Source: Myxococcus sp.
GTDB lineage: Bacteria > Myxococcota > Myxococcia > Myxococcales > Myxococcaceae
Direction: 5' to 3'
Length of the DNA: 38,436 nucleotides
Assembly (NCBI GenBank): GCA_014879945.1
Contig: JACSRE010000189.1
Coordinates: 1 to 38,436, forward strand
Numbering within the stretch: position 1 is the stretch's first letter; every line of letters starts with the position of its first letter. The notes beneath the pieces were generated by a model, which worked only from the letters and a program-made list of their open reading frames with translations, made no database searches and was not told where the DNA came from. The position numbers and the translations under genes were made by a program. Positions 11,500 to 28,060 of this stretch are shown piece by piece.

Positions 11500-14042
11500 A
11501 AGGCCACCTCGGCGCGCGCGATGAGGTCGTCTTGAATGCTCGGGCCCAGCCGCGTGAAGTAGGCCGAGTAGCCCGACACCCGCACGATGAGGTCGGGGAA
11601 GTCCTGGGGGCGCTGTTGGGCCGCGCGCAGGGTCGCCGCGTCGGCGGTGTTGAACTGCACGTGGAACCCGCCGTTGCCGAAGTAGGCGCGCAGCAGCCCC
11701 GCCACCGCCTCCTGGCCCTTCTCCGAGCCGACCAGCCCGATGGGCAGCCGCATGTTGAGCGAGTTGCCGTAGCCGATGGCCGTCTGGTCGATGCGCGAGA
11801 CCGAGTTGAGCGCCGCCGTGGGGCCCTTCGTCTCGGCGCCGTTGCTGGGCGACATGCTGTTCGACAGCGGCGCGCCGGCGAAGCGCCCGTCGGGCGTGGC
11901 GGGCTCGAGCGCGCCCTCGTACACGTTCAGCCCGTACGAGATGAGGCTCGCCTTGAAGTGGCCGCCGGTGACGGTCGGCTGGGCGCGCACCAGCTCGCAG
12001 AAGCGGGCCACCACCAGCGCCGCCAGCGCGTCCACATGGGGGTCATCGACGCCGAAGCGCGGCCCGGCCCGCAGCCGCAGCCGCAGCGCCTCGTGCCCGC
12101 GGAAGTTGCAGGCGAGCGCCGCGAGGAGCTCATCCATCGACACCGCGCGCTGCTCGAAGACGAACGCCCGCACCGCCGCCAGCGAGTCGACGGCCGTGCC
12201 CAGGCCGCCGCCGCCGACCGCCCCGAAGTTGTAGCGCGCGCCTCCGCGGGTCATGTCGCGCGCGCGCTCCACGCAGCCGTCGATGGTGCTGCTGATGAGC
12301 GGGTTGTGGAACCGCTCGGCCCAGATGGCGTCACGCAGCCGGGTGGCCTCGGTCACCTGCGCCACCATCACCTCGAGCTGCCGGAAGTAGGCCGCGAGGA
12401 GCTCGTCGAACGAGCCGAAGCGCCGCGGGTCGCCGGTGTCGGGCCCATCCTGGTTGCCGAAGAACGTGGTGCGCCCGCGGTTGAAGACGAGGTCGAGCGC
12501 GGTGGGGAAGTACACCTTCGAGCCGCCGGTCGCGCCGAAGGTGTCGCCGTTGCCGCTCGGCTCGACGCAGCCCACCAGGCAGTAGTCGCGCGCGTCCTCC
12601 AGCGAGTAGCCGTCTCGCCTCAGCGTCGCGATGGCCGTCTCGTCCGAGAGGAAGGCGGGCGAGTTGGTGCGGCGGTGCATCTCGACGACGCGGCGCACGT
12701 ACTCCGGCGGGCTCTTCTTCGAGACGCGGAACGACGCGGTGGTGGCGAGGTTGGTGTTCTCGATGGCCTCGATGAAGAGCCACGAGAGCGCGTTGGTGGC
12801 GTCGGCGCCCTGTCGATCGACGCCGCCGATGGTGAGGTTCTCGACGTCGGAGCCGAGGTGGTTGAGCTCGACGCCGCCGATGTTCGGCCAGATGACGACG
12901 TTGTCGTTGAGCTTGATGACGAGCTCCTCGAGCAGGCGCAGCGCGTGGGCGCGGTCGAGGGCGCCCTTCGCGACGTCGGCCTCGTAGAAGGGCAGGAGCA
13001 GCTGGTCGACGCGGCCCGGGGTGATGCCGCTGCCCGCGCCGTAGCTGATGATGGCGGCGTTCTGCACGAACCACAGCGCCTGCACCGCCTCGGCGAAGGA
13101 GCGGGGCGGGAGCCACGGCACGCGCTCGCACCGCTGGGCCAGCTCGAGGAGCTCGCCCCGACGCTCGGCCGCGCAGCCCCCTTCTGCCTCGGCGCGGGCC
13201 AGGGTGGCGAAGCGCCGCGAGAAGGCGCGCATGGCGTCACAGGTGAGGAGCACCGCCTCGAGGAAGTGGCGCTCGTCGTCGGTGCCGGCGCGCGCGAGCC
13301 TCGCCTCGGCCTGCGCGCGAATCCCCGAGAAGCCGAGCGCCAGCACGTTCTTGTGGCCCGGCACGATGTGCGCCTGGGTGTCGGTGCAGCGCCCGCGGCC
13401 CTTCACGTTGTCGCTCGCCCCCGCGCGGATGGCCCCCAGCAGCCGCGGGAGCCGGCGCAGCAGCGGCTCGCTGGTGCCGCCCCTCGGCGTGAGGAGGCGG
13501 CCGAGCGCGCGGGGGCCGAAGGCGCGCAGCTTGCGCACCAGCTCGGCGGGCGAGGCGTTGGGCGGGCTGTCGAGGTGGTGCGCCTGCAGCGCCGCCACCT
13601 TCGCGTCGCGCACCGTGCGGCCCGCCCACCAGGGGATGAGCTCCTCGAGCAGCTCGGCCTTGTCCTCGGGGGTGATGCGGTAGCCGAAGGCCAGCAGGTC
13701 TTCGAGCAGGTAGCGGAACACGAAGGTGAAGTCGCCGCGCTCGGGCGCGATGGGCGGCGCGATGGGCTTCGAGGCGCGGTTGCCGACGAGCAGCTCCTCG
13801 GGCTCGAGGCGCAGCGTCATCTTCTCGAACACGTTGGCCAGGGCCCGGGCCGCGCGCAGCGACGGGTGCAGCCCCTCGGTCTGCCGCCACACCTCGGTGG
13901 TGTAGCGCGCGCGCTCGATGCACAGCCAGTGCTCGGCGGTGAGCAGCCGCTGCTTGAGCGCCGCGTTCTTCGGGTGGAGCGCCGTTCTCGGGGCCGAGCC
14001 AGCGCTCCCGGGCAGCGTCACGGCGGGGCGTTCGAGCTGCAT
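11496..14042 (-). CDS. Glycyl radical enzyme of the pyruvate formate-lyase superfamily
   Basis: 848 residues. The N-terminal PFL domain starts near residue 25 (LKQRLLTAEHWLCIERARYT, TEGLHPSLRAARAL). The thiyl-radical site is in DYCLVGCVEPSG, with Cys492 and a Glu two residues on (Glu494). The glycyl-radical loop is RVSGYSAYF with Gly824, near the C-terminus as expected. A single Cys followed by V-E-P, not Cys-Cys, excludes a true pyruvate formate-lyase. C-x-E occurs in glycerol and propanediol dehydratases, choline lyase, hydroxyproline dehydratase, isethionate lyase and arylacetate decarboxylases, so the substrate is open. The gene starts 2 bases after the TetR gene and overlaps the activase gene. 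No microcompartment genes are in the window. The enzyme would be oxygen-sensitive. Confidence 0.92.
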   Translation of the reverse strand: MQLERPAVTLPGSAGSAPRTALHPKNAALKQRLLTAEHWLCIERARYTTEVWRQTEGLHPSLRAARALANVFEKMTLRLEPEELLVGNRASKPIAPPIAPERGDFTFVFRYLLEDLLAFGYRITPEDKAELLEELIPWWAGRTVRDAKVAALQAHHLDSPPNASPAELVRKLRAFGPRALGRLLTPRGGTSEPLLRRLPRLLGAIRAGASDNVKGRGRCTDTQAHIVPGHKNVLALGFSGIRAQAEARLARAGTDDERHFLEAVLLTCDAMRAFSRRFATLARAEAEGGCAAERRGELLELAQRCERVPWLPPRSFAEAVQALWFVQNAAIISYGAGSGITPGRVDQLLLPFYEADVAKGALDRAHALRLLEELVIKLNDNVVIWPNIGGVELNHLGSDVENLTIGGVDRQGADATNALSWLFIEAIENTNLATTASFRVSKKSPPEYVRRVVEMHRRTNSPAFLSDETAIATLRRDGYSLEDARDYCLVGCVEPSGNGDTFGATGGSKVYFPTALDLVFNRGRTTFFGNQDGPDTGDPRRFGSFDELLAAYFRQLEVMVAQVTEATRLRDAIWAERFHNPLISSTIDGCVERARDMTRGGARYNFGAVGGGGLGTAVDSLAAVRAFVFEQRAVSMDELLAALACNFRGHEALRLRLRAGPRFGVDDPHVDALAALVVARFCELVRAQPTVTGGHFKASLISYGLNVYEGALEPATPDGRFAGAPLSNSMSPSNGAETKGPTAALNSVSRIDQTAIGYGNSLNMRLPIGLVGSEKGQEAVAGLLRAYFGNGGFHVQFNTADAATLRAAQQRPQDFPDLIVRVSGYSAYFTRLGPSIQDDLIARAEVAL

Positions 14043-14044
14043 GG

Positions 14045-14653
14045 CTACCGCCCTCCTTCGAGCTCGGCGAGGAGCAGGTGCGCCACCTTGCGCACGTGGC
14101 GCTTGCGCGCGGCGAGCGCGGCCGGTGAGAACGGGTCCTTCCCGGTGAGGCGGCGCAGCACCTCGCCGTAGGTGAACCAGGTGACGACCATGCCGTAGAC
14201 GGTGGCGAGCACGTTCACCGCGTCGAGGTCGCGCGGCGGCTTGTCGAGCGCCTCACCCATCCACGCCACGCCGAGCTGGAACATCGGCAGCGTGCGCTCG
14301 ACGATTCGCTCGACGTGCCTGCCGCTGGCCACCTCGCGCTGCACGATGCGGCTGAAGGCGCGGTGCTCGGCGAGGAAGTCGGCGTAGGTGTCGAGCAGGT
14401 GGTCCACCTGCGCCGTCAGCGAGGCGCGCGGCGTGGCCAGCGAGGCCTGCAGCGCCGCCCCCAGCTTCGCGTAGGCGCCCTCGAGCAGCGCCTCGAGCAG
14501 GTCGTCCTTGGTGCCGAAGTGGTAGTGAATGAGGGCCTTGTTGACGCCCGACCGCTCCGCGATGTCGCGGGTCGTCGTCACGTCGAAGCCCAGCGCTCCG
14601 AACAGCCCGTCCGCCGCCTCGAGGATTCTCTGCTTCGTCTCGTTCGCGTCCAT
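14045..14653 (-). CDS. TetR-family transcriptional regulator
   Basis: 202 residues. The N-terminal helix-turn-helix (KQRILEAADGLFGALGFDVT, TTTRDIAERSGVNKALIHYHF) is a textbook TetR DNA-binding domain, roughly residues 7-52. The C-terminal ligand domain is unremarkable and gives no substrate clue. It is the first gene of an operon with the glycyl radical enzyme (stop TAG at 14045-14047, enzyme start at 14042) and its activase, so it very probably regulates that operon and itself. Encoding the regulator in the same direction as its target is typical of autoregulation. Confidence 0.9.
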   Translation of the reverse strand: MDANETKQRILEAADGLFGALGFDVTTTRDIAERSGVNKALIHYHFGTKDDLLEALLEGAYAKLGAALQASLATPRASLTAQVDHLLDTYADFLAEHRAFSRIVQREVASGRHVERIVERTLPMFQLGVAWMGEALDKPPRDLDAVNVLATVYGMVVTWFTYGEVLRRLTGKDPFSPAALAARKRHVRKVAHLLLAELEGGR

Positions 14654-14783
14654 GTCGTCTCCGGTTGGGCGTTGGGTTTAGGCGCTTGGTCAACTTCTGG
14701 CCCACGCCAGCGGGGGTTGCCTTGACAATCCGCAAGCTGCGGCGCGAGGGCGGGTGACAGGGTGCCTCGCATCGTCTGCCCGT
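14654..14783. promoter_or_regulatory. Divergent intergenic region with candidate TetR operator
   Basis: This 130-base gap separates the minus-strand TetR operon from the plus-strand lipoprotein gene. It holds a TTGACA -35-like hexamer at 14722-14727 without a convincing -10. Two related half-site-like sequences are present, TTGGTCAA (in CGCTTGGTCAACTTC) and CCTTGACAA. A short imperfect dyad TTGC-N11-GCAA (14717-14735) overlaps the -35-like box. These are the only dyads I see here, so this is where a TetR operator would be sought; the assignment is an inference. Confidence 0.25.
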
Positions 14784-15899
14784 ATGCGACCGCGCCTTCC
14801 TTCCTCGTCACCCGGGCCCACCCGCCGTGGGAGCGGCGCGGCGTGCGTGCTGCTCCTCGTCGCCGGGTGCGTGGTGCTGCCGAACCCGAAGGGCGCCCCG
14901 TGCTCACAGAGCGGCGCGTGCCCTGACGGCTACACCTGCTTCCCCGACGCCCGCTGCTACCCCTACGACGCGCACCCGCCGTGCAACCCGCCCTGCTACG
15001 GCGCAGAGCCGCTCTGCGACCAGGCGGCGCTGCGGTGCGTGGAGTGCCTCGCGGACGGTGACTGTGAGGCGGGCTTCGTCTGCGCGCTCCAGGTGAAGCG
15101 GTGCACGCCGGGGTGTACCGCCGCGCGCCCCGAGTGCCCCATGGGGCAGCGCTGCGACGTCGAGGCCGGCACGTGCGTCGGTCAGGGCTGCACCGACGAC
15201 ACCGCCTGCACGATGGCGGGGCGGCCGCGGTGTGACGTGCGCACCGGCCTGTGTGTGCCGTGCCTGCCCGGCGGCGCCGATTGCTCCGCGGGCACCTTCT
15301 GCACCGCCTCGAGCGGCACCTTCCGCTGCGTTCAAGGCTGCAACACCGTCTCGGACTGCCCCGCCAACGGGCCCAACCAGGTGCCGGCGTGCTGCGACCA
15401 CCGCTGCGTCGACGTGCTGGCCTCGGCCGAGCACTGCGGGGCGTGCGGCAACCCCTGCCAGAACAACGACAGCTGCTGCGACGGCGTGTGCTTCGACCTC
15501 ACCCGGAGCGCCGAGCACTGCGGTGGCTGCGGGCGCAGCTGCTACCTCCCCAACGTCACCGGCGTGCGCTGCGCCGACTCGAAGTGCTCGAACCAGGGCT
15601 GTGAGCAGTACTTCGGCAACTGCGACGGCAACCTGCAGAGCAACGGCTGCGAAGAGAACCACTCGTTCTCCTCCCTCCACTGCGGCAACTGCTTCCACCC
15701 GTGCCCCGGCCAGCCCAACCGCCCCGGCGTCTGCGTGCTGCTCTCGTGTCGCCCGGGGCCGTGCGCGGCCGGCTGGGAGGACTGCGACGGCCAGGCTTTC
15801 AACGGCTGTGAGCGGCGCCTCGGCACCACCACCGACTGCGGGGGCTGCAACAGGCCCTGCGCCCCGAACCAGACCTGCGTGGACGGAGCCTGCCGATGA
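14784..15899 (+). CDS. Cysteine-rich surface lipoprotein
   Basis: 371 residues from ATG 14784. The N-terminus has a basic, Pro/Ser-rich lead and then CVLLLVAGC, a lipobox V-A-G-C at Cys29. The mature part is packed with cysteines in short repeats: CSQSGACPDGYTCFPDARCY, then C-x-x-x-C-x-x-G-x-x-C blocks, and later near-repeats SAEHCGACGNPC / SAEHCGGCGRSC / TDCGGCNRPC. Such Cys-rich, EGF-like or Stig1-like lipoproteins are very common in Myxococcota and are probably disulfide-stabilised surface proteins. No catalytic site. Its stop overlaps the start of the next gene by ATGA (15896-15899), so the two are co-translated and may act together on the cell surface. Confidence 0.85.
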   Translation: MRPRLPSSSPGPTRRGSGAACVLLLVAGCVVLPNPKGAPCSQSGACPDGYTCFPDARCYPYDAHPPCNPPCYGAEPLCDQAALRCVECLADGDCEAGFVCALQVKRCTPGCTAARPECPMGQRCDVEAGTCVGQGCTDDTACTMAGRPRCDVRTGLCVPCLPGGADCSAGTFCTASSGTFRCVQGCNTVSDCPANGPNQVPACCDHRCVDVLASAEHCGACGNPCQNNDSCCDGVCFDLTRSAEHCGGCGRSCYLPNVTGVRCADSKCSNQGCEQYFGNCDGNLQSNGCEENHSFSSLHCGNCFHPCPGQPNRPGVCVLLSCRPGPCAAGWEDCDGQAFNGCERRLGTTTDCGGCNRPCAPNQTCVDGACR

Positions 15900-18838
15900 A
15901 GAGACGAACGTGGGTCGCGGCGCTCTGGCTGTCGTTGCTGCTGCCGGTGACGGCGGCGAAGGCCGCGGCGCCTGCCGGCGACGACGCCGTGCTGGCAGAG
16001 ATTGAGCGCCACTTCCCCGCCGCGAAGAAGTGGTTCGGCATGGTGAAGGACCTGCAGTTCGACCGCGACGCCGACGGCGCGCTCACGCCCCGCTACTCGA
16101 CGCTCAAGTCCGCCTTCGTCCTCCCGAAGGACCCCGCGGGCCAGGTGGTGATGGCGCGCCTGCCCGCGTTCGCCTCCGGCGGCATGCAGGTGTGGGCGGT
16201 CGGCAATGAGCGGCTCTGGGTGCGCACCCGTGAAGACGGAGCGCCACGCCGGCCGGCCGAGGTGCTGCGGGGGGTGGTCGTCTACCGCAACGCCGTCGCG
16301 GGCGGCGACCTCCTCTACAAGCTGACGCCGACCCACGTCGACGAGTACCTCTACCTCCGCGCGCCGCCGCCACACCTGCGCCGCGTCTTCACTGTCGAGC
16401 TGGGCCCCGAGGCCATGGCGCTGCGCCAGGCCGGCGACACGCTCGAGCTGCTCGGCCACGACGGCGCGGCGCGGCTGCGCGTCTCGGCGCCGGTCGCCAG
16501 AGCGGCCGACGGCACCCGCCGCACCGGCACCATTCGGGTCGACGGCGTGCACCTCGTCGAAGAGCTCGACCTGCGCGGGCTGGTCGCGCCGGTGCTGGTT
16601 GACCCCGACTGGACGACCACCGGCACGATGCCCGTCTCGCACCTGGCCGACGTCGGCTGGCGCCTCGACCGGGGCTCGGTGATGGCCGTCGGCGGCTGCG
16701 CGCTCGCCGCGTGCCCGCTGGGCCTGGTGGGTGAAGCCTGCTCGCAGGTGGTGCCCAGCACCTCGGTGTGGCGCGCGTCCTCCCAGACGTGGACCTTCGG
16801 CCCCACCATGCTCACGGCGCGCTACTCGTTCGCGTCGGTGGTGCTGCCGAGCAACGAGCTCTTCGTCGCTGGCGGCTGCACCGGCTCCGACTGCCGCTCC
16901 ACCACCGCCGCCGCCGAGCGGTACTCGAGGGCGACGCAGCGGTGGGTGCCGGCTGGTGCGCTCTCGAGCAGCCGCGCGCGCGTCGAGGCGGCGTTGCTGC
17001 CCAACGGCGACGTGGTGCTCCCCGGCGGCTGCGACGCCTTCCGTTGCCTCACCGAGGTCGCCCGCTACCAGGTAGCCGCCGACCGGTGGACGACGCTCGC
17101 GCCGCTGCCTTCGCCTCGGGGGTTCGCCACCACCACCGCGCTGGCCGACGGCTCGCTGCTGGTGCTGGGGGGCTGCGCCGACCCGCGGTGCGCGACGGTG
17201 CTCGACGACGCGCTCCGCTACGACCCGGTCGCCAACCAGTGGAGCCCCGCCGGCACCATGAAGCTCGCCCGCGCCGCCCACACCGCCACGCTGCTCAACG
17301 ACGGCACCGTCTTCATCGCCGGCGGGTGCCAGAGCGCCGAGTGCCGCGGCGCGACGCTCGACACCACCGAGCTCTTCCGGCCGGGCGTCACCCCGCCCTT
17401 CGTCGACGGGCCGGTGATGCGCTCCCCCCGCCACCACCACACCGCGACGCTGATGGAGAGCGGGCTGCTGCTCCTCGCCGGCGGCACCGACCGCGTCGAC
17501 TCGACCCGCGGCACCGCCGAGGTCTACCTGCCCGTCTCGAAGCGGCTCGCCGAGATGCCACGCATGGCCATGCCGCGCGCGTTCCACATCGCGGTGAGCC
17601 TCGAGTCGGGCGAGGTGCTCGTCGGCGGCGGGTGCAACGCGGCGACGTGCCTGCCGTGGGCCGAGGTGTTCGACCCGACCGGCCTGCCGATGGAGCGGGT
17701 GACCGACGCCGGCGTGGTGGTGACGACCGACGGTGGCGTCACGCTCGACGCTGGCCTCCCGCCGGTGGTGCTCGACGCTGGCGCCGAGCCTCCGCCCATC
17801 GACACCACGCCGTTCCTCGCCCGAGGTGGGCCGCACCCCAGGCTCTTCCGCACCGGCGCGGTGGCGTGCGCCGACGACCAGGGCTTCGACCGGCCGTGTC
17901 CCGTGCCCGGCTGGCGCGCGCAGGACGCCGACTTCCAGCCCAACACGCACCCCTTCGTGCCGCTGCCCAACGACGAGGTGCGCGACGACGCCAGCGGGCT
18001 CATCTGGCAGGCGCGCGCCGACGGGCAGCTCCGCGCGCAGGCCGACGCGGTGGCGGCCTGCGCGGCGCTCGAGACCGAGGGCGCCCCCGCGGGCACGTGG
18101 CGGCTCCCGTCGGTCGTCGAGCTCGCCACCCTCGTGCACTACGGGCGCGCCGACCCGGCCATCGACCAGGCCTTCCCCGAGACCCGCGACGCCAACTACT
18201 GGGCCTCGACGCCGGTGGCCAACGCCGCCACCATGGGGTGGTCGGTGCGCTTCGGCGTCGGCGAGGTGATGCCGATGCTCGCCACCAACCCGGCGCCGTC
18301 GCGGTGCGTGCGCGGGGCGCTCAAGCGCGCGGCCGTCGACGGCACGGTGCGGCTCGCGGGCGCGCTGACGGCGCTCCCCGAGACGGTGAAGGACGAGGCC
18401 AACGGGCTCGAGTGGCAGCGGCTCGACGACGGGCGCAAGCGCACCTGGCGTGAGTCGCTCGACGCCTGCGCGCAGCTCTCCCTCGCTGGGAACGCGGACT
18501 GGCACCTGCCCAACGTGCTCGAGCTGATGAGCCTGCTCGACTACGCCGCGCTCGAGCCGGCGAAGACCGACGGCGTCTTCGAGACGGCGCGGCCCGAGCT
18601 CTACTGGTCTTCGTCCTTCAGCCAGAACACCCCCGGGCTGGCGTGGGGCGTGGCCTTCAACCTCGGCGCGGTCGACGCCGTCAGCGTGAACGGGCGCGCC
18701 TTCGCGCGGTGCGTGCGGCACCTCCCGTCGCCGCCGCCGCCCTGCCGGTGCGGGACCGATGGCGCGGGCGCGATGGCGTGGGGCGCGGTGGCGGTGCTCG
18801 GGCTGCTTCGCCGCGCGCGGACCGCGAGGCGGCGATGA
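15896..18838 (+). CDS. Secreted Kelch-repeat protein with two DUF1566 domains and MYXO-CTERM tail
   Basis: 980 residues. A signal peptide (MKRRTWVAALWLSLLLPVTAA) is followed by an N-terminal domain to about residue 235. A Kelch/beta-propeller-like region (about 240-600) has repeated blades such as LPSNELFVAGGC, LPNGDVVLPGGC and LADGSLLVLGGC, many with a GGC containing an unusual Cys. After an Asp/Pro linker come two DUF1566 (Lcl C-terminal-like) domains: NDEVRDDASGLIWQARADG and TVKDEANGLEWQRLDDG, each ending in a RCVR motif. The C-terminus (950-980) is Cys-x-Cys, a short hydrophobic stretch and RRARTARRR, resembling the MYXO-CTERM sorting signal handled by myxosortase. The protein is therefore probably anchored and exposed on the outer surface. 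It is coupled to the Cys-rich lipoprotein before it. Confidence 0.88.
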   Translation: MKRRTWVAALWLSLLLPVTAAKAAAPAGDDAVLAEIERHFPAAKKWFGMVKDLQFDRDADGALTPRYSTLKSAFVLPKDPAGQVVMARLPAFASGGMQVWAVGNERLWVRTREDGAPRRPAEVLRGVVVYRNAVAGGDLLYKLTPTHVDEYLYLRAPPPHLRRVFTVELGPEAMALRQAGDTLELLGHDGAARLRVSAPVARAADGTRRTGTIRVDGVHLVEELDLRGLVAPVLVDPDWTTTGTMPVSHLADVGWRLDRGSVMAVGGCALAACPLGLVGEACSQVVPSTSVWRASSQTWTFGPTMLTARYSFASVVLPSNELFVAGGCTGSDCRSTTAAAERYSRATQRWVPAGALSSSRARVEAALLPNGDVVLPGGCDAFRCLTEVARYQVAADRWTTLAPLPSPRGFATTTALADGSLLVLGGCADPRCATVLDDALRYDPVANQWSPAGTMKLARAAHTATLLNDGTVFIAGGCQSAECRGATLDTTELFRPGVTPPFVDGPVMRSPRHHHTATLMESGLLLLAGGTDRVDSTRGTAEVYLPVSKRLAEMPRMAMPRAFHIAVSLESGEVLVGGGCNAATCLPWAEVFDPTGLPMERVTDAGVVVTTDGGVTLDAGLPPVVLDAGAEPPPIDTTPFLARGGPHPRLFRTGAVACADDQGFDRPCPVPGWRAQDADFQPNTHPFVPLPNDEVRDDASGLIWQARADGQLRAQADAVAACAALETEGAPAGTWRLPSVVELATLVHYGRADPAIDQAFPETRDANYWASTPVANAATMGWSVRFGVGEVMPMLATNPAPSRCVRGALKRAAVDGTVRLAGALTALPETVKDEANGLEWQRLDDGRKRTWRESLDACAQLSLAGNADWHLPNVLELMSLLDYAALEPAKTDGVFETARPELYWSSSFSQNTPGLAWGVAFNLGAVDAVSVNGRAFARCVRHLPSPPPPCRCGTDGAGAMAWGAVAVLGLLRRARTARRR

Positions 18839-19023
18839 AGCCGAGCGCGCCGTCATCGGTCGAGGTCGGCCGCGGTGCCGTGCACGGCGAGGGCGCCGCG
18901 TCGAAGCGCAGCGCCCGGTCGTGGTCGCGCCGCGCGGGCGGCCTTGCCGCGCACGCTGGACGCGCGGTGTCGTGGTCGCGCCGCTCGAGCTGCGTCGCCC
19001 TGGAGACGGAGAGGCTCCGATGA
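18835..19023 (+). CDS. Possible 62-residue bridging ORF
   Basis: A short frame whose ATG overlaps the stop of the Kelch gene (ATGA 18835-18838) and whose stop overlaps the start of the cytochrome lipoprotein (ATGA 19020-19023). It is Ser/Arg-rich with no signal or domain. It contains two copies of a 16-base direct repeat (18918-18933 and 18969-18984) that encode WSRR-type repeats. It could be a real tiny protein or only a translated leader keeping ribosomes coupled through a 180-base gap. Composition argues against a structured protein. Confidence 0.3.
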   Translation: MKPSAPSSVEVGRGAVHGEGAASKRSARSWSRRAGGLAAHAGRAVSWSRRSSCVALETERLR

Positions 19024-20396
19024 AGCGCGCGGTGATGGCTCTGGTGGTGGCAGCGTGTCTCGGCTGTACGGTCGAGGGCCCCGAGGGGCCCATCGGTCCT
19101 GCGGGGCCCCCCGGCGTGTCTGGGGGCAAGGGTCCGGTCGGTCCGCAAGGCGACGCCGGCGCGCAGGGGCCGCCCGGCGCGCCCGGCGCGTTCATCGTGC
19201 TCTCGGAGCGCGCGCGCCGGGGCCTCGAGGTCGCGCCGGTGAAGCTGACGCTCGAGGGCCTCACCAGCGCGCAGGTCGAGCGGGTCGGCGCCGGCAGCTA
19301 TCTCGTCAACGCGGTGGCCGACTGCGGCGCGTGTCACGACGCGCAGGGCGCTGACGGCGGGCGCCGCGCCCTCGCGGGCGGGCAGCGCTTCACCCTCGCG
19401 CCCGCGCTCGGCACCGAGGTCTACGCGCGCAACCTCACGCCCGACGCGAACACCGGGCTGACGCTCAGCGAAGACCAGTTCCTGCTCATCATGCAGACCG
19501 GCACCGACAAGAAGAACCCCAGCTCGTCGCTGCTGGTGATGCCCTGGTTCGAGTACCGGTGGATGACGGTGGACGACCTCAAGTCCATCTACGCGTACCT
19601 GAAGGCCGTCCCGCCCGAGAACAACGACGTCCCCGGCGACGTGAAGAACGACATCCCCAAGGTGACGATGCCTTTGGCCTTCGGCGACGGCGACGTGCCG
19701 CGCCCGCTGCTCCCCGAAGCGACGCGCGACGCCGACGGGGTGCTGCGCGGCTTCACCATTCAGCCGCTCGCGCAGCCTGACCTCGGCGCGTGGCCCGCCA
19801 ACGTGCAGAGCCTCTTCGGGCGCGGGAGCTACCTCGTCAACGCCGTGGGCCGGTGCAACGAGTGCCACACCAACCCGGCGCGAGACCCGACGACGCACCG
19901 AATCAACACCGCGGGCTACCTCGCCGGAGGCATGGTCTTCACCGACCCTACGGGCCCGCACGCCCCGGCGTCGCTCAAGCGGTCGATGAGCCGAAACCTC
20001 TGCGGCGCCACCAACGGCTACACCGCGCCCTTCACCGACTTCGCCGCGTCGCTCGCGTCGGGGCTGCGCGCGGGCCGCTCACCCTCAGAGAGCCTGGCCT
20101 GGCCGATGCCGACGTGGGCGCTCTCGAACCTCACCACCCAGGACCTCGAGGCCCTCTTCACCTACCTGCGCCTGGTGCCCCGCCGCATGGGCGCGGACGA
20201 CAAGCCGACGGTCGGCGCAGTCACCGCCTGCAGCGCGAGCGTGGCCTGCCCGGGGGCGCAGCGCTGCAACCTCAGCGCCGGAGAGTGCGAGGGGGCCTGC
20301 GACGCGCTCACCCCGTGCCCCGCGTGTCAGCGCTGCGTGGCGGGGGCGTGCGTGGCGCCGGCCGCCAACGACGCGTGCCTGACGTCGGGGCTCTGA
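19020..20396 (+). CDS. Diheme cytochrome c lipoprotein with collagen-like segment
   Basis: 458 residues. GGAGACGGAGAGG precedes ATG 19020. The N-terminus MKRAVMALVVAAC is a lipoprotein signal (lipobox V-A-A-C, Cys13). Residues 20-58 form 13 uninterrupted collagen-type Gly-X-Y triplets (GPE GPI GPA GPP and so on). Two class I cytochrome c domains follow, with heme motifs CGACH (102-106) and CNECH (279-283), each introduced by GSYLVNAV. This is the arrangement of diheme dehydrogenase-type cytochromes. A Cys-rich tail (from about 400) ends the protein. The rod-like spacer would hold the hemes away from the membrane. Directly upstream of the Rieske gene, it probably exchanges electrons with the bc complex. 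Confidence 0.88.
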   Translation: MKRAVMALVVAACLGCTVEGPEGPIGPAGPPGVSGGKGPVGPQGDAGAQGPPGAPGAFIVLSERARRGLEVAPVKLTLEGLTSAQVERVGAGSYLVNAVADCGACHDAQGADGGRRALAGGQRFTLAPALGTEVYARNLTPDANTGLTLSEDQFLLIMQTGTDKKNPSSSLLVMPWFEYRWMTVDDLKSIYAYLKAVPPENNDVPGDVKNDIPKVTMPLAFGDGDVPRPLLPEATRDADGVLRGFTIQPLAQPDLGAWPANVQSLFGRGSYLVNAVGRCNECHTNPARDPTTHRINTAGYLAGGMVFTDPTGPHAPASLKRSMSRNLCGATNGYTAPFTDFAASLASGLRAGRSPSESLAWPMPTWALSNLTTQDLEALFTYLRLVPRRMGADDKPTVGAVTACSASVACPGAQRCNLSAGECEGACDALTPCPACQRCVAGACVAPAANDACLTSGL

Positions 20397-20406: not shown

Positions 20407-20928
20407 GTGAAGGACGACCGACCGCCGACGCTGTGGACCCGACGCGACGTGCAGACGCGCTCGGCGTGGGCGCTGTTGGGCGCGAGCCTGGTGGCGATGG
20501 TGGGCGCGTTCGTGCGGCTGCTCTTCCCCCGGGTGCGCGCGGAGCCGCCGACGAAGGTGGTGCTCGGCAGCCCCGAGGCCTTCGCCGTCGGCGAGGTGAG
20601 CGAGCGGTACAAGCGCACGCACCGCTTCGTGCTCGTGCGCGAGGCCGCCGGCTTCTACGCGCTGCGCTCGGTCTGCACCCACCTGGGCTGCGTGCCGGCG
20701 TGGAGCGCGGGCCAGGAGAAGTTCAAGTGCCCCTGTCACGGGAGCGGCTTTCACCGCGACGGCGTGAACTTCGAGGGCCCGGCCCCGCGCCCGCTGGAGC
20801 GCCTGGCCATCGCGCTCGACGCCGAGAAGAACCTCGTCGTCGACACCGCGGTGGTGCTGCGGCGCGAGCGCGGTGAGTGGAGCCGCGCCGACGCCTTCCT
20901 CCCGTACCCGTCGGCGGGCCACCCATGA
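20407..20928 (+). CDS. Rieske iron-sulfur protein of the bc complex
   Basis: 173 residues. An N-terminal membrane anchor (about 18-42, SAWALLGASLVAMVGAFVRLL) is followed by the Rieske fold with both cluster motifs: CTHLGC (Cys90, His92, Cys95) and CPCHGSGF (Cys108, Cys110, His111). Cys95 and Cys110 would form the usual disulfide. It takes one electron from quinol at the Qo site of the cytochrome b below. AAGGAGG ends a few bases before the ATG, a strong ribosome-binding site. Its stop overlaps the cytochrome b start (ATGA, 20925-20928). Confidence 0.95.
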   Translation: MKDDRPPTLWTRRDVQTRSAWALLGASLVAMVGAFVRLLFPRVRAEPPTKVVLGSPEAFAVGEVSERYKRTHRFVLVREAAGFYALRSVCTHLGCVPAWSAGQEKFKCPCHGSGFHRDGVNFEGPAPRPLERLAIALDAEKNLVVDTAVVLRRERGEWSRADAFLPYPSAGHP

Positions 20929-21731
20929 GCGACGCGCCCCCGCCCTCGACGCGCGAGGGCCCTCCCCCCGGGCTGGTGAAGGAGGTGGTGCGGTCGGCGT
21001 TGCGCGTCGAGAACGTCGACACCCCGAGGAACCGGGTGCTCGCGGTCGCGCACACCGTGTGGCTGCACCTGCACCCCACCAAGGTGCCGCGCTACTCGGT
21101 GCGCTTCAGCTTCACCTGGGGCGCCGGTGGCATCAGCTTTCTGCTCTTCCTCGTCACCGTGGTGACCGGCGTGGTGCTGATGTTCGTCTACCGCCCGACG
21201 CCCGAGCACGCCTGGCTCGACGTGAAGCGGCTCGACTTCGACGTGCCCTTCGGCATGTTGAACCGCAACATGCACCGCTGGGCGGCGCACGCGATGGTCA
21301 TCGTGGTGTGGGTGCACCTGCTGCGTGTCTTCCTGACGGGCTCGTACAAGGCGCCGCGGCAGTTCAACTGGGTCGTCGGCGTCGGGCTGCTCACCTTGAC
21401 GATGCTGCTCTCGTTCACCGGCTACCTGCTGCCGTGGGACCAGCTGTCGATGTGGGCGGTGACGGTGGGCACCAACATGGCCGCGGCCGCGCCCGTCATC
21501 GGCCACGAAGGCCCCTTCGCGGCGCCGGGCCTGAGCGCGACCAACGACGTGCGCGCGCTGCTGCTCGGCGGCCCCACGGTGGGGAGCGCGGCGCTCCTGC
21601 GCTTCTACATCCTCCACTGCGTGGCGCTGCCGATGGCCCTGGGCCTGGGCTGCATCGTCCACTTCTGGCGGGTGCGCCGCGACGGCGGCATCAGCGGGCC
21701 CGGCACCTCGGGGCCGAAGGGAGCGCCCTGA
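20925..21731 (+). CDS. Cytochrome b N-terminal subunit (b6-like)
   Basis: 268 residues with four membrane helices: the two-heme half of a split cytochrome b. Heme-ligand histidines are His117 and His131 in helix B (14 apart) and probably His231 and His246 in helix D. The 15-residue spacing in helix D is that of cytochrome b6, not mitochondrial cytochrome b. The motif SFTGYLLPWDQLSMWAVTVG is the classic Qo-side stretch. A polar 50-residue N-terminal extension precedes the first helix. It forms the core of the quinol-oxidising complex with the Rieske protein and the following subunit. Confidence 0.94.
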   Translation: MSDAPPPSTREGPPPGLVKEVVRSALRVENVDTPRNRVLAVAHTVWLHLHPTKVPRYSVRFSFTWGAGGISFLLFLVTVVTGVVLMFVYRPTPEHAWLDVKRLDFDVPFGMLNRNMHRWAAHAMVIVVWVHLLRVFLTGSYKAPRQFNWVVGVGLLTLTMLLSFTGYLLPWDQLSMWAVTVGTNMAAAAPVIGHEGPFAAPGLSATNDVRALLLGGPTVGSAALLRFYILHCVALPMALGLGCIVHFWRVRRDGGISGPGTSGPKGAP

Positions 21732-22637
21732 GTGGAGCCGCTCCTCCACATCCTCCTCAAGCCCGACAACGTGCCCATCGTGCTGATGGTGCCGCTCTTC
21801 GCCGGCATCCTGCTCCACTGGTGGCGCGCGGCGCGGCGCCACGACCGGCTGCTCGTCGAGGGCGGAGAGGCCGCCGTCCGCCGTGAGCTCGACGGGCCGC
21901 TGCCCGAGGGCACGCCGGAGCCGAAGCTCCACACCTGGCCGTACCTGCTGCGCGTCGAGCTCATCGCAGCGCTCGCCACGGTGGTGGTGCTGCTGGTGTG
22001 GTCCATCACGCTCGACGCGCCGCTCGAGCAGCTCGCCGACCCGACGCGCACGCCCAACCCCAGCAAGGCGCCCTGGTACTTCCTGGGGCTGCAGGAGCTG
22101 CTCGTCTACTTCGACCCGTGGGTGGCGGGCGTGGCGCTGCCGCTGCTCATCATCGCGGGCCTCTGCCTCATTCCGTACCTCGACGTGAACCCGGCCGGGA
22201 GCGGCTTTCACTCGTGGCGCGGCCGCCGCTTCGCCGTCTCGGTCTTCCTCTTCGGCTTCGTCGGCCTCTGGCTGGGGTTGATCCTCGTGGGCACCTTCTG
22301 TCGCGGCCCGGGGTGGAACTGGTTCTGGCCGTGGGAGCCGTGGGACCGCGCGCGCGCGGTGGAGCTCGCCACCCGTGACTGGCCGGCGCTCTTCGGGGTC
22401 TCTCCCGGGCCGGGCGCCTCGCTGCTGGGCGGCGCGACGGTGCTGGGCTGGTACGGCCTGGGGCTGGTCGGCTGGCGGCTCCTGCGCCACCGGCCCGCGC
22501 TGCAACGCCTCGGCGGCTCGCGCTACGCGGTGGTGGCGTTCCTGCTGCTCACCATGCTCGCGGTGCCGGTGAAGATGGCGCTGCGGCTGGGCTTCTCGGT
22601 CAAGTACGTGTGGACGACGCCGTGGTTCAACCTGTGA
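21732..22637 (+). CDS. Cytochrome b C-terminal subunit (subunit IV-like, enlarged)
   Basis: 301 residues from a GTG that directly abuts the preceding stop. It carries the C-terminal half of cytochrome b. The Qo motif, classically PEWY, reads A-P-W-Y at 113-116 (KAPWYFLGLQELLVYFDPWV), so the usual Glu is missing and proton exit from quinol must use another residue. The text PYLDVNPAGSGFHSWRGRRF follows, as in many non-phototrophic bacterial complexes. About six hydrophobic segments make it longer than plant subunit IV (about 160). Two extra helices at the C-terminus may dock the octaheme cytochrome. Its stop overlaps the next start as GTGA (22634-22637). Confidence 0.92.
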   Translation: MEPLLHILLKPDNVPIVLMVPLFAGILLHWWRAARRHDRLLVEGGEAAVRRELDGPLPEGTPEPKLHTWPYLLRVELIAALATVVVLLVWSITLDAPLEQLADPTRTPNPSKAPWYFLGLQELLVYFDPWVAGVALPLLIIAGLCLIPYLDVNPAGSGFHSWRGRRFAVSVFLFGFVGLWLGLILVGTFCRGPGWNWFWPWEPWDRARAVELATRDWPALFGVSPGPGASLLGGATVLGWYGLGLVGWRLLRHRPALQRLGGSRYAVVAFLLLTMLAVPVKMALRLGFSVKYVWTTPWFNL

Positions 22638-24838
22638 AGCCCGGCGGCCGCGCGGCGGAGTCCACCAGCTACCGGGCGCCGTTCCTTCTCCTCTGCGCGC
22701 TCCTCTTCCTCTCGACGCTCTGGGCCCTCTGGGACGAGGGCTGGGGGCGGCGGCCGTGGAAGGCGACCCAGGCGCGCTTCAACGAGGTGCTCGCGCAGCG
22801 AGGGCTGCCGCCGGTGGACGAGGGCCTCAGGCAGGTGACGATTCCCGCGCTCGACGTCGCCGACCGCTGCCAGTCCTGCCACCTCGGCGTCGATCGGCCC
22901 GGCCTCGAGAGCGACGAGGTGCCGCGCGTGCTGCGCACACACCCGCGCCGTGACGAGCTGCTCGGCCGACACCCGGTGGAGCGCGTGGGCTGTACGCCGT
23001 GCCACGCCGGGCAGGGGCTGCAGACCAAGGGCGTCGGCGGGGCGGCCTTCGCGCACGGGCGTGACGACCCGTACTGGGAGCAGCCGCTGCGCTCGAGGCC
23101 CTTCATCGAGTCGAGCTGTGTCGCCTGTCACGCCAGCGAGCGCGAGGTGCCAGGGGCGCCGTTGTTCAACCGCGGGCGCGCGCTCTTCGAAGACCGCCGC
23201 TGCTCGGCGTGTCACTCGAGCCGGTACGTGACGACGCCCGCGCCCGCGGCGCCTCCGCTCGACCGGTTGAGAGAGAAGACCTCCGAGGCCTTCGTGGTGG
23301 CGTGGCTGCGCGACCCGGTGAAGCTGCGGGCCGGCACGCGCATGCCGGCGTTCTGGCCGGAGGCAGGCGCGCGGCGCGAGCAGGAGCCGGTGGCCATCGC
23401 CGCCTTCCTCGGCAGCGTGAGCGAGGCCGCGAGCGCGCCGGGCAGCGCCCCGCCGACCCGGGAGGAGGTCGAGGCCGGCAAGGCGCTGTTCGACGCCGTC
23501 GGGTGTCGCGGGTGTCATCAGCTCGCAGACGAGGCCGCCGGCCCGCCCGAGGCGGGCTTTGGCCCCCGCCTCGACGGCATCGGCGCGCGCGCGACGCGGG
23601 CGTGGCTCCAGGCGTGGCTGAAGAACCCGCGCGCCCAGTTCGCAGACGCGCGCATGCCGGACCTGCGCTTGAGCGACGACGAGGCCGCCGCGCTCGCCGC
23701 CTTCCTCGCGTCGCAGGTGCCGGCCGGTGAGCAGCCGCTCGAGCCGCGCTGGTCCACGCCCGACGCCGCGCTCGTCAGCCAGGGCCGGCAGGCGGTGCTC
23801 CGCTACGGCTGTCAGGCCTGTCACCGCATTCCCGGGCTGACGCCGGCCGGGCGCCCAGGCCCCGACCTCGACGACTTCGGCGACCTGCCGCCGGAGCGGG
23901 TGGAGTGGGGTGAAGGCCGGCCCGCCTGCGACTTCACCGAGCGCGAGTGCTGGACGCTGGCGAAGCTCCGCCACCCCCAGGCCCTGCGTCGGCCCGGGCT
24001 CGACCTGGTGATGCCGCGCTTCGACCTGTCCGACGACGAGGCGTTGGCGCTCTCGGTGTTCCTCCTCTCGAACCGCGCGCAGCCCGCGGTGCCCCGTCAG
24101 GTGAGCGAGGCGTCGGCGGCCATCGCGGCGGGCGAGCAGGTGATGGCGCGGCACAACTGCGCGGGGTGCCACGAGGTGGCGCGTGAGGAGCGCCGCGTCG
24201 GCGACGAGGTGCAGACGACGGTGCGCGGCGGGCAGATTCGCCGGTTCTACGACGACGACGCGCTCGCGCCGCCGCCGCTCTCGCGGGCCGGCCAGAAGTT
24301 CCAGCTCCGGTGGCTGTTCGACTTCCTCCACCAGCCGCGTCGGGTGCGCCCGTGGCTCTCCGTGCGCATGCCGACGTTCGCGCTCGAGGACCGCGAGGTC
24401 GAGGCGCTCCTGCGCTCCTTCGCCGCGCGCAGCGGCCAGCCCTTCCCCTTCGAGCGCGAGGCGCCGCTCCTGGCAGGCCCCGGCGAGCGCGCCGACGCCA
24501 CCTTCCTGCTCGAGAAGATGCAGTGCGCGCGCTGCCACGCCGTCGGCGCCGGAAGAGACGTGAAGCCCGCCGAGCGCGCGCCCGACCTGACGCTCGCCGC
24601 CGGCCGCCTCAAGCCCGGGTGGATGCGCGCGTGGCTGCTCGACCCGCAGGCGCTGCAGCCCGGCACCCGCATGCCCGCCTACTTCTTCCTCACCGACGAC
24701 GACGACCCGACGAGCTGGAGCACGCCGTACCCCAACGTGCTCGGAGGAAACGCCACGCGTCAGGTCGACGCGCTGGTCTGGCTCACCACCGAGCTGGGGC
24801 GGCAGGCCCCGGCGCACCCCGAAGGAGCACCCCGATGA
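22634..24838 (+). CDS. Membrane-anchored octaheme cytochrome c of the bc operon
   Basis: 734 residues from GTG 22634, which overlaps the stop of the cytochrome b C-terminal gene. An N-terminal anchor (YRAPFLLLCALLFLSTLWAL) is followed by eight CXXCH motifs: CQSCH, CTPCH, CVACH, CSACH, CRGCH, CQACH, CAGCH and CARCH. Five MP-containing loops (RMPAF, RMPDL, VMPRF, RMPTF, RMPAYF) look like axial methionine ligands of class I cytochrome c folds. The first hemes seem to form a multiheme N-terminal module, the rest at least four cytochrome c domains in tandem. This replaces the single-heme cytochrome c1 or f of textbook complexes. It would carry electrons from the Rieske protein through a long periplasmic heme wire. 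Confidence 0.93.
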   Translation: MKPGGRAAESTSYRAPFLLLCALLFLSTLWALWDEGWGRRPWKATQARFNEVLAQRGLPPVDEGLRQVTIPALDVADRCQSCHLGVDRPGLESDEVPRVLRTHPRRDELLGRHPVERVGCTPCHAGQGLQTKGVGGAAFAHGRDDPYWEQPLRSRPFIESSCVACHASEREVPGAPLFNRGRALFEDRRCSACHSSRYVTTPAPAAPPLDRLREKTSEAFVVAWLRDPVKLRAGTRMPAFWPEAGARREQEPVAIAAFLGSVSEAASAPGSAPPTREEVEAGKALFDAVGCRGCHQLADEAAGPPEAGFGPRLDGIGARATRAWLQAWLKNPRAQFADARMPDLRLSDDEAAALAAFLASQVPAGEQPLEPRWSTPDAALVSQGRQAVLRYGCQACHRIPGLTPAGRPGPDLDDFGDLPPERVEWGEGRPACDFTERECWTLAKLRHPQALRRPGLDLVMPRFDLSDDEALALSVFLLSNRAQPAVPRQVSEASAAIAAGEQVMARHNCAGCHEVAREERRVGDEVQTTVRGGQIRRFYDDDALAPPPLSRAGQKFQLRWLFDFLHQPRRVRPWLSVRMPTFALEDREVEALLRSFAARSGQPFPFEREAPLLAGPGERADATFLLEKMQCARCHAVGAGRDVKPAERAPDLTLAAGRLKPGWMRAWLLDPQALQPGTRMPAYFFLTDDDDPTSWSTPYPNVLGGNATRQVDALVWLTTELGRQAPAHPEGAPR

Positions 24839-25560
24839 CCGCCACCCGCTTCCTTGCCGTCCTCCTCCTCCTCGCGTCGCCGCTGGCCCTCGCCGAAGAC
24901 GCCGTGGGTGTGGTGCGCGGCACCGTGACGCTCAAGGGCACGCCCCCCAAGGCGCCCGAGGTGAAGCTGCCCGCCGACCTGGCCGAGAAGGACCGCGCGT
25001 TCTGCACCGCGAAGCCGTCGCTGGTGCCGCCCTTCTACGTCACCGACAAGGCCGCCCACCTCAAGGACGTGGTGGTGTGGCTCACCGGGGTGAAGGGCGC
25101 CGCCGGCCCCGCCACGCCGCGCTCGCTGGTGAACGCCGACTGTCGCTTCGAGCCGCACGTGCAGGCGGTGACGGTCGGCGACGAGCTCAAGGTGGTGAAC
25201 CGCGACCCGCTGCTGCACAACACGCACCCGGTCTACCTGGGCGACCAGAGCACGATGTTCAACATCGCGCTCCCCGAGCAGGGCCAGGAGGTGAAGAAGA
25301 AGGTGAAGAAGCCCGGCGTGCTGAAGGTGCAGTGCGACGCGGGCCACGTGTGGATGCGGGCCTTCGTGCACGTCTTCGACCACCGCTTCCACGCCGTCAC
25401 CGGCGCCGACGGGGCCTTCGCCATCGCCGACGTTCCCCCCGGCAAGTACACGCTCAACGCGTGGCACGAGGCGGCGGGCACGCAGACGCGAGAGGTGGAG
25501 GTCACCGCGACCACGCCGAGCCAGAGCGACTTCAGCTTCGAGGTGAAGCCCGTGCCCTGA
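24835..25560 (+). CDS. Periplasmic cupredoxin-like protein with carboxypeptidase-regulatory-like domain
   Basis: 241 residues, ATG overlapping the previous stop (ATGA). The signal peptide is MTATRFLAVLLLLASPLALA. The central domain has the makings of a type 1 copper site: H-N-T-H at 128-131, then VQCDAGHVWM (Cys167, His171, Met174). Families of this kind usually read CDxHPWM; here one residue is inserted. A terminal beta-sandwich (VTGADGAFAIADVPPGKYTL, NAWHEAAGTQ) is of the CarboxypepD_reg type. Last gene of the bc operon, it may be a copper electron carrier taking electrons from the octaheme cytochrome or a structural subunit. Copper binding is inferred. Confidence 0.82.
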   Translation: MTATRFLAVLLLLASPLALAEDAVGVVRGTVTLKGTPPKAPEVKLPADLAEKDRAFCTAKPSLVPPFYVTDKAAHLKDVVVWLTGVKGAAGPATPRSLVNADCRFEPHVQAVTVGDELKVVNRDPLLHNTHPVYLGDQSTMFNIALPEQGQEVKKKVKKPGVLKVQCDAGHVWMRAFVHVFDHRFHAVTGADGAFAIADVPPGKYTLNAWHEAAGTQTREVEVTATTPSQSDFSFEVKPVP

Positions 25561-25617
25561 GCCGAGCGTGGGCCACACGCACTCCGCCGCGGCTCACTCC
25601 CACGGGGTGCGTGGCCC
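25558..25617. terminator. Bidirectional terminator-like inverted repeats between convergent operons
   Basis: Between the cupredoxin-like gene and the converging diheme cytochrome gene, TGAGCCG (25558-25564) pairs with CGGCTCA (25590-25596), and the stop codons of both genes lie in these arms. A second, overlapping repeat pairs GGGCCACACGCAC-type sequence (25570-25583) with GGGGTGCGTGGCCC (25604-25617), with a two-base bulge. There is no T-tract. The location between converging stops supports a shared terminator. Confidence 0.4.
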
Positions 25618-26355
25618 GAAGAGCCAGCGGAAGAAGCCGGGGCTGCGCGAGAGCGAGCGCACGTAGTGAACGAGGGCCCAGCGGTCCTCCTCGCTGGGCA
25701 GGCTGTCGCCGTACGAGGGCATCGGCGTGCCGTCGAGGCCGGTGACGAAGGTGCGGTACACGTCCTGGGGGGTGGAGCCGCCCTTGTAGAGCCCGACGGT
25801 GAAGTCGAGCGGCGCGGTGCTCTCGCCGTGGTCGTCCACCGCCGTCGCCGCGGCGGGCCCGTCGCCGCGCCCCTCGGGGCCGTGGCACTGGCCGCACTTG
25901 AGTGACTGGTAGAGCGCGCGGCCGCGCTCCCTCGCGGCGGGCGTGTCGGGCAGCGGCCGGAGCTCTCCTGCGGGCGGCACGACTCGCTCCGGGGGCTCAC
26001 CCTTCGGCCCGAAGGCGAGCACGTAGCCGGCGACGGCCTTGAGGTCGGTGGGCGACAGGAGCGGCCCGAACGCCGTCATCCACGTGCCGCGAACACCGGT
26101 GGAGACGGTGCGCATCACGTCGCTGAGCAGCGGGCGCTCGCCCGACTCGGTGCTGCGGAACTTGAAGGCGCCGGTGACGAAGTTGCGCGGCTTCGGAGAG
26201 AGCGCCGCCGCGCCCGGGCCGCGCCCGTCACCCTCGCGCCCGTGGCAGCTCTCACAGGCGTCGCGGTAGACGACGCCCCCGCGCACGAGGTCGGGCGGCT
26301 CGTCGCCCCACGCGCTCACCGCCAGCAGCAGCGCCACCGCCAGGCCCGCGCGCAT
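25594..26355 (-). CDS. Periplasmic diheme cytochrome c
   Basis: 253 residues. A signal peptide (MRAGLAVALLLAVSAWG) is followed by two cytochrome c domains with CESCH (34-38) and CGQCH (154-158). Each is followed by a G-x-G-D-G-x-G loop (HGREGDGRGPG, HGPEGRGDGPA) and has a Met ligand candidate (TWMTAFG, TPMPSYG). Its ATG directly follows the TAG of the cytochrome-porin gene, so it is in the same operon. It is a likely shuttle between the inner-membrane bc/octaheme complex and the outer-membrane cytochrome-barrel. The two operons converge here. Confidence 0.92.
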   Translation of the reverse strand: MRAGLAVALLLAVSAWGDEPPDLVRGGVVYRDACESCHGREGDGRGPGAAALSPKPRNFVTGAFKFRSTESGERPLLSDVMRTVSTGVRGTWMTAFGPLLSPTDLKAVAGYVLAFGPKGEPPERVVPPAGELRPLPDTPAARERGRALYQSLKCGQCHGPEGRGDGPAAATAVDDHGESTAPLDFTVGLYKGGSTPQDVYRTFVTGLDGTPMPSYGDSLPSEEDRWALVHYVRSLSRSPGFFRWLFGPRTPWE

Positions 26356-27501: not shown

Positions 27502-28060
27502 GCGGCGCTCCGCGAGCAATCCACGCGCGAATCGCCTCGAGCTTCTCGGCCGAGAGGTACGGCGGCTCGTTCAACGGCATGCGCTCTCCGACCCGGCGGG
27601 GATCCGACGGAATCACCTTGAGGTAGAGGTAGCTGTTCAGCGGGTCGCCGGGCTTGATGAGTGTCAGGGCTGGCACCTCGACGGACTTCACGCCGACGAT
27701 GCGCTGGTAGGCGTTGACCGCGTCGAGCTGCATGCCCTTGGGCGCGCTGGCGCCGCGATGGCAGTACGCCGCGCAGGTCTGGGTGAAGATGTTCTTCTGA
27801 ATCCACCCGTAGCGCGCGCGCTCGTCGACGACGCCCGCGTCGACCTCGGCCACGCCGCCGTCGTCGCTGGCGCCGCCGTCGTGCACGCCCGCGTCGCGCG
27901 GCAGCTCGTTGTTCCCGCCCGCGTCCACCGCGAGGCCCGCGTCGCGTCGCGGCCGGCCCTCGACGTCGAGGTCTTCGCCGGTGCCGGCGCAGGCCGCCGC
28001 AGTCGCGAGCAACAGCGCCGTCGCCCAGGCCTTCCATGCGTCGAGCGAGCGCGCCGTCAT
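27494..28060 (-). CDS. Lipoprotein with CX3CH cytochrome-like domain
   Basis: 188 residues from ATG 28060. Signal MTARSLDAWKAWATALLLAT leads into AAAC (Cys24), a weak lipobox. An acidic Asp/Gly-rich linker (about 25-80) precedes a domain resembling planctomycete-type cytochrome c-like modules: IFTQTCAAYCHRGASAPKGM, then KPGDPLNSYLYLKVIP, GERMPLNEP and a C-terminal helix. The heme-type motif is C-A-A-Y-C-H (Cys96, Cys100, His101), i.e. CX3CH instead of CX2CH. Met161 could be an axial ligand. First gene of the cytochrome-porin operon (8-base overlap). A surface or periplasmic partner for the barrel is likely; heme attachment at CX3CH is uncertain. Confidence 0.8.
   Translation of the reverse strand: MTARSLDAWKAWATALLLATAAACAGTGEDLDVEGRPRRDAGLAVDAGGNNELPRDAGVHDGGASDDGGVAEVDAGVVDERARYGWIQKNIFTQTCAAYCHRGASAPKGMQLDAVNAYQRIVGVKSVEVPALTLIKPGDPLNSYLYLKVIPSDPRRVGERMPLNEPPYLSAEKLEAIRAWIARGAPRD

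Follow-up and report, generated by a model that had tools for sequence, protein, structure and literature searches.

A collagen-like tract between the probable lipid anchor and the hemes of a Myxococcus diheme cytochrome, with similar tracts on OmcA/MtrC-type decaheme cytochromes

Models of extracellular electron transfer cover the crossing of the outer membrane, and say less about how the outermost cytochromes are held and spaced. The AdhB-like cytochrome subunits of membrane-bound dehydrogenases carry three hemes, on three CxxCH motifs. In PgcA of Geobacter sulfurreducens, a predicted surface lipoprotein cytochrome, tripeptide Pro-rich repeats of the PTx/PAx type lie between three hemes (PMC5732950); in the accessible part of that paper collagen is mentioned once, in a discussion of proline-induced secondary structure. 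In the available part of another paper (PMC5244752) the word occurs in a domain table only. According to the accessible text of PMC7682875, the (GAS)n tract of Bucl8 gives a triple-helix signal in circular dichroism without hydroxyproline. A full-text literature search returned no description of a collagen-like tract on a c-type cytochrome; its coverage of subscription journals was thin, so this is weak evidence.

The window analyzed here is a 38,436-nucleotide stretch of DNA from Myxococcus sp. (contig JACSRE010000189.1, from an assembly of 448 contigs). One of its genes encodes a probable lipoprotein in which a collagen-like tract stands between an N-terminal Cys and two c-type heme domains:

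19020-20396, + strand: gene of the putative collagen-stalked diheme c-type cytochrome lipoprotein; ATG at 19020, 458 amino acids, Pfam matches to Cytochrome_CBB3, Cytochrom_C and Collagen
19020-19067, + strand: short signal peptide up to the probable lipidation Cys (C16; C13 possible), predicted from the sequence
19077-19193, + strand: collagen-like tract of 13 Gly-X-Y triplets, residues 20-58, from the translation; Pfam Collagen on residues 20-56
19290-19613, + strand: first cytochrome c domain, residues 91-198, CGACH at 102-106; Pfam PF13442/PF00034, PDB relatives 8hdd, 7w2j and 8gy2
19806-20189, + strand: second cytochrome c domain, approximately residues 263-390, CNECH at 279-283; CxxCH motif and a weak PDB match of residues 266-438 to 9jqa
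20229-20378, + strand: Cys-rich C-terminal tail, residues 404-453; 10-11 Cys follow the second heme in 10/10 orthologues

The translated tract reads GPE GPI GPA GPP GVS GGK GPV GPQ GDA GAQ GPP GAP GAF. Gly is kept in unbroken register at residues 20, 23, 26 and onward to 56, and Pro occupies 7 of the 13 X positions and 3 of the 13 Y positions. The first-pass annotation had placed thirteen uninterrupted triplets at residues 20-58 (19077-19193) of a diheme cytochrome; translation reproduced these coordinates exactly, and the two CxxCH motifs together with the Pfam cytochrome c domains bear out the diheme assignment. Both hemes are common to all 10 full-length orthologues. The Pfam Collagen model matched residues 20-56 with an E value of 3.8e-5 and 23.8 bits in hmmscan, below the 27.2-bit cut-off, and with 27.1-27.5 bits, flagged as above the cut-off, in the genome search. 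The NCBIfam models SclA, SclB and Lcl match weakly over the tract; eleven PHROGs families also match there, of which ten are phage tail proteins. Among solved structures, the closest in sequence are the cytochrome subunits of dehydrogenases acting on glucose, fructose and alcohol (8hdd, 7w2j and 8gy2; E 1.5e-15 to 6e-13). Identity with the triheme AdhB subunit was rejected, as the window protein has two CxxCH motifs, and no gene for a membrane-bound dehydrogenase partner was found among the neighbors examined. A single-chain AlphaFold model built from a four-row alignment was unusable (mean pLDDT 30.3). No promoter was found by the promoter scan, and none of 119 plasmid records covered 80% of the query, all being below 60% identity.

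Two residues of the window protein are candidates for lipidation, C13 in VVAAC and C16 in CLGC, and lipidation is likely on this evidence. The lipobox claimed at first pass stands in part: each of the four collagen-form orthologues has a Cys directly before the tract, but none of their short signal peptides matches the strict PROSITE lipobox pattern, which does match in all six tract-less orthologues. In M. xanthus lipoproteins, Lys at +2 acts as an inner-membrane signal and Ala at +7 as an extracellular-matrix signal, according to the accessible part of PMC3222651. Counted from C16, the window protein has Thr at +2 and Glu at +7, neither of the M. xanthus signals, which would assign it to the outer membrane by default. 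The tract-less orthologues begin C-D-D, which is inner-membrane retention by the E. coli rule; thus the cellular location may vary.

Matches at 1e-15 were found in 33 of the 96 family genomes, and full-length orthologues in 10; the matches in the remaining 23 genomes are weaker and lie mostly over the first heme domain. Records taken to hold the same genes (L003, L022 and L043; L004, L021 and L044; L020 and L052) were each counted once, and the three named related records are MAGs. Four orthologues have the collagen form, with 13 triplets in G000, G006 and G064 and 12 in G010. The other six, all of genus g15, are tract-less, with acidic and Pro-rich linkers, or in G088 (L055) a TDGG tandem repeat instead. 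From the Cys to the first conserved GxGSY motif there are 71-74 residues in the collagen forms and 42-46 in the tract-less forms, or 68 in G088, where the TDGG linker gives a distance near that of the collagen forms. The first-pass expectation that orthologues would keep the repeat at a constrained length therefore divides: length is near-constant (12-13 triplets in 4/4 collagen forms) and does not drift inside the collagen clade, but 6/10 full-length orthologues lack the repeat. A FastTree tree separates collagen from tract-less forms, with split supports of 0.957 (collagen forms grouped) and 0.973. The tract is absent from the examined segments of the outgroup rows used, so that the simplest assumption is that the collagen lineage gained it once.

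Codons of the tract were compared in the six pairings of the four collagen forms, a small sample in which the mutation rate was unmodelled. Among 75 pairs of Gly codons, 25 were identical, 50 differed synonymously and 0 non-synonymously, and non-synonymous differences were counted at 9/75 X and 20/75 Y positions. All four Gly codons appear across the orthologues at the fixed Gly positions. Because 50 synonymous and 0 non-synonymous Gly differences were found in 75 pairs, the tract is, as judged from codons, under selection for Gly-X-Y and not a product of chance. Gly makes up 9.07% of the protein outside the tract; with this background, 13 in-register Gly would be expected by chance at about 3e-14 per start position. 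A chance or low-complexity artefact of GC-rich DNA, in which GGN and CCN codons are common, is ruled out by the codon test and by this estimate, and we consider it hardly conceivable. Amino-acid identity is 0.333 in the signal peptide (residues 1-15), 0.947 in residues 16-37, 0.812 in residues 38-58, 0.771 and 0.714 in heme domains 1 and 2, and 0.581 in the tail. Of the stretches compared, the one covering the first third of the tract is thus the best conserved, above the heme domains. The segment CTVEGPEGPIGPAGPPGVSG is identical in 4/4 collagen forms, and X and Y are strongly conserved in the first six triplets. Such strong conservation argues for an ordered or recognized element.

The cytochrome gene lies in a conserved block with these neighbors:

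14754-15899, + strand: Cys-rich secreted protein (MXAN_6577-like / STIG1-like), start of the conserved block
15896-18838, + strand: kelch protein with two Lcl_C-matching stretches, upstream of the cytochrome
20407-20928, + strand: Rieske protein
20877-21731, + strand: cytochrome b
21732-22637, + strand: C-terminal part of cytochrome b
22610-24838, + strand: octaheme c-type cytochrome with 8 CxxCH, adjoining the bc module
24835-25560, + strand: secreted protein with a CarboxypepD_reg-like domain
25594-26355, - strand: diheme c-type cytochrome
26356-27519, - strand: putative outer-membrane barrel (heme-porin), judged a barrel by eye, with the N-terminal heme motif CSQCH
27494-28153, - strand: small lipoprotein with CxxxCH

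The order, from the Cys-rich gene through kelch/Lcl_C, collagen cytochrome, Rieske, cytochrome b, its C-terminal part and octaheme to the CarboxypepD_reg-like gene, with the diheme, putative porin and small lipoprotein genes on the opposite strand, is complete in L022/L043; the short contig L020 covers part of it. Elsewhere in the window, a glycyl-radical enzyme with its activase was recognized by eye (10768-14042, - strand), followed by a TetR-type regulator (14045-14653), and a tandem repeat of about 30 bp occupies the contig end (38223-38436). Three products of the block, namely cytochrome b, the cytochrome b C-terminal part and the octaheme protein, have matches to ExtP, ExtQ and ExtS, models for selenite/tellurite operons, in each case below the cut-off.

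In G010 (L021/L044), Rid-like and sigma-factor-like reading frames, identified by eye, replace the Rieske, cytochrome b and octaheme genes, and the flanking genes stay; a search of this genome for an octaheme match returned none. Since G010 keeps the collagen cytochrome without the bc module, the module is dispensable and the electron route proposed below is not obligatory. The cytochrome as an obligatory subunit of the bc complex is ruled out on the same ground, that G010 has it without the bc module at the locus.

Among the 96 genomes, heme-porin orthologues at 67-81% identity were found only in G000, G064, G006 and G010, the last with its copy divided between two contigs; G015 has relatives of 51% and 36%. 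Long kelch/Lcl_C orthologues (68-77%) were likewise confined to G000, G064, G006 and G010, other matches being partial and at most 43%. The collagen form thus travels with both genes and the tract-less form does not; the neighbors seen in the window were absent beside two g15 loci over 20 kb (L045, L046) and within about 4 kb of the other four. The heme-porin N-terminus is conserved as AEPHLAVREGF.CSQCH.NR.GGGKRNAFG, and the protein had no Pfam, NCBIfam or PDB match. The product of 26356-27519 appears to represent a heme-porin family of its own, which we take to resemble the Cyc2-type cytochrome-porins. A G015 frame beside a porin relative carries CAQCH, which suggests that the lipoprotein at 27494-28153 is probably another heme protein of the block. 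Lcl_C takes its name from the C-terminal domain of Lcl, a collagen-like adhesin of Legionella, and here the kelch/Lcl_C gene adjoins a gene with a collagen tract; this may be a coincidence, because kelch relatives are common in the family. The Lcl_C region had no match among PDB sequences.

The source genome gave 19 Collagen matches in 11 open frames; C418, with a GQQ-type repeat, was left out, and the other ten frames were considered by inspection. In 10/10 the tract follows an N-terminal Cys, with a small Cys-containing segment between in L049, and 4/10 are heme proteins, namely the window gene and three others:

L047:3249-6050: OmcA/MtrC decaheme protein with tract; 354.5 bits against a cut-off of 209.3
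L048:5759-7759: eight-CxxCH protein with 24 triplets and a CarboxypepD_reg domain
L049:2610-5480: nine-CxxCH protein with an NGT-rich tract; 166.2 bits, below the cut-off

In the first of these, a single chain has matches to OmcA (4lmh) as well as to collagens or BclA. On its contig (C121) the gene lies near frames with 23, 12, 5 and 3 CxxCH motifs, and this cytochrome cluster is likely an extracellular electron transfer locus. Another collagen frame, L051:4168-5616 (+ strand, contig C122), encodes a lipoprotein that combines 13 Gly-X-Y triplets with a C-type lectin domain (Lectin_C) at the C-terminus, a layout like that of a bacterial collectin.

Tracts of this kind were also found on decaheme cytochromes. 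The OmcA/MtrC model TIGR03507 matched in 60 of 193 Myxococcota genomes, and the best-scoring 30 loci were read, with poly-Gly excluded and the frame chosen by overlap with the match. In 25 of these best 30 loci, 5-32 uninterrupted Gly-X-Y triplets occur within 12 residues of a Cys, in 22 of the 25 at 1-8 residues after it; in three (L094, L096, L099) the tract follows a small Cys hairpin and not the anchor Cys directly. Poly-Gly or comparable linkers stand in the remaining five. In a second phylum (that of G194, reached through L023 and, by record title, Acidobacteria), the model matched in 30 of 199 genomes, and of the best-scoring 30 loci, 16 carry a tract, 12 do not and 2 (L145, L147) have no readable frame. 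Eight of the 12 tract-less loci have no Cys in the N-terminal segment examined, which suggests that the tract goes with the lipid-anchor Cys; of the rest, a Cys lies within the hydrophobic stretch of L138 and L139, and in L118 and L132 the segment misses the N-terminus. By these sequences, tract length is free across the decaheme loci and nearly fixed in the clade of the window gene. A phylum-wide Collagen survey, usable in part and not drawn on for any conclusion, gave a readable frame in 22 of 30 loci and at least two CxxCH in 3 of the 22; a lipobox-like Cys lies nearby in about 12 on reading the rows (13 by script, some flagged rows not being lipoboxes and the unflagged L165 read by eye). 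The search for Gly-X-Y repeats joined to cytochromes that the first-pass annotation had proposed was therefore productive in the source genome and in the decaheme loci of both phyla, and the singularity it had implied does not hold: the same genome has three more collagen-plus-multiheme lipoproteins, besides the 25 of the best 30 Myxococcota decaheme loci.

From sequence and gene content we infer lipidation, an outer-membrane location, an electron route and a stalk role for the tract. The product would be an outer-membrane-type lipoprotein cytochrome whose tract would act as a stalk: placed between lipid anchor and the two AdhB-like heme domains, it would lift these domains off the membrane and bring them within reach of partners beyond, to exchange electrons with them. 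If triple-helical, the stalk could extend up to about 11 nm, as estimated from the rise per residue of the triple helix. Electrons from the inner membrane might be fed in by the quinol-oxidizing Rieske/cytochrome b module and the octaheme cytochrome, with the diheme carrier next, followed by the outer-membrane cytochrome and the heme-motif porin. It is probable that the partners are encoded alongside the cytochrome, and gene content suggests the route. We consider the stalk reading the probable one, with considerable room for doubt, because the tract is conserved, the gene block is conserved and the same layout recurs on OmcA/MtrC decaheme cytochromes. Against it, the strict lipobox pattern fails in 4/4 collagen forms, and six orthologues do without the tract, on linkers that are shorter or different. 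The cytochrome might instead be a periplasmic subunit of the adjacent bc complex, its tract spanning the periplasm from the inner membrane to a partner and not pointing outward. In the window, L022 and L020, its gene does directly precede those for the Rieske protein, cytochrome b and the octaheme cytochrome, and the C-D-D start of the tract-less orthologues is the E. coli inner-membrane signal; yet the +2 residue of the collagen forms is Thr, and G010 keeps the collagen cytochrome with the kelch, Cys-rich, diheme and heme-porin genes in the absence of a bc module, so that we hold this arrangement to be unlikely.

Within the stalk reading, the state of the tract is a separate question, on which a triple helix of three chains is a tentative answer, at somewhat less than an even chance, and a plain spacer is nearly as likely. 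The winding of three chains into a rod that bundles six hemes on one stiff stalk, as the first-pass annotation proposed, is quite possible, if short of an even bet: an unbroken Gly register under purifying selection, a near-constant length and strong conservation at X and Y over the first six triplets are easier to reconcile with a folded element than with a loose spacer, and Bucl8 (GAS)n, in the accessible text of PMC7682875, is a precedent for the folding of short bacterial tracts. On the other side, the tract has only 13 triplets, one of them GGK, and no KGE/KGD stabilizing motif; no trimerization domain was identified in the window protein, and the AlphaFold model lends nothing usable. We know of no trimers among the related dehydrogenase cytochrome subunits. 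A flexible or polyproline-II spacer, for which any unstructured linker of similar length would serve and Gly-X-Y would be a lineage habit, is a plausible minority reading. Orthologues place acidic/Pro-rich or TDGG linkers at the same site, poly-Gly serves in other decaheme lipoproteins, the best 30 Myxococcota loci vary in tract length between 5 and 32 triplets, and the PTx repeats of PgcA (PMC5732950, accessible part) set a precedent. Such a spacer should drift, however, and this tract is more conserved than the heme domains, with no Gly change in 75 codon comparisons, albeit among four sequences only.

In a broader sense, collagen triple helices could serve generally as stalks of surface c-type cytochromes, both in Myxococcota and in the second phylum; a stiff outer-membrane rod would carry six hemes in the present protein and thirty in members of the decaheme family. 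We regard this generalization as rather doubtful; if true, trimeric redox stalks would bridge the gap to minerals, partners or neighboring cells. In two phyla the tract recurs at the foot of surface-type cytochromes, where it could set their oligomeric state, reach and spacing, and a named family, OmcA/MtrC, appears to carry the architecture with no description found in the literature searched.

Among known systems, Scl1/SclA, Lcl and Bucl8 share uninterrupted Gly-X-Y with the window protein, but have adhesin or efflux heads, and in the accessible parts of the sources none was found described with a heme. The membrane-bound sugar and alcohol dehydrogenase cytochrome c subunits (8hdd, 7w2j, 8gy2) have a cytochrome domain homologous to that of the window protein. 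PgcA is, like the window protein, a predicted surface-type lipoprotein cytochrome with a tripeptide repeat spacer; its PTx/PAx repeats, however, lie between hemes, whereas Gly-X-Y precedes the first heme here. The window protein is not a member of the OmcA/MtrC family, having no TIGR03507 match and two hemes instead of ten. The OmcA/MtrC decaheme proteins of Myxococcota and Acidobacteria are nevertheless like it, at 25 and 16 of the 30 loci read in each, in being Cys-anchored c-type cytochromes with Gly-X-Y between anchor and hemes, and differ in carrying ten hemes in MtrC-type domains where the window protein has two AdhB-like domains. The architecture thus looks like a recurring way to hold electron carriers off the membrane, and not a single oddity.
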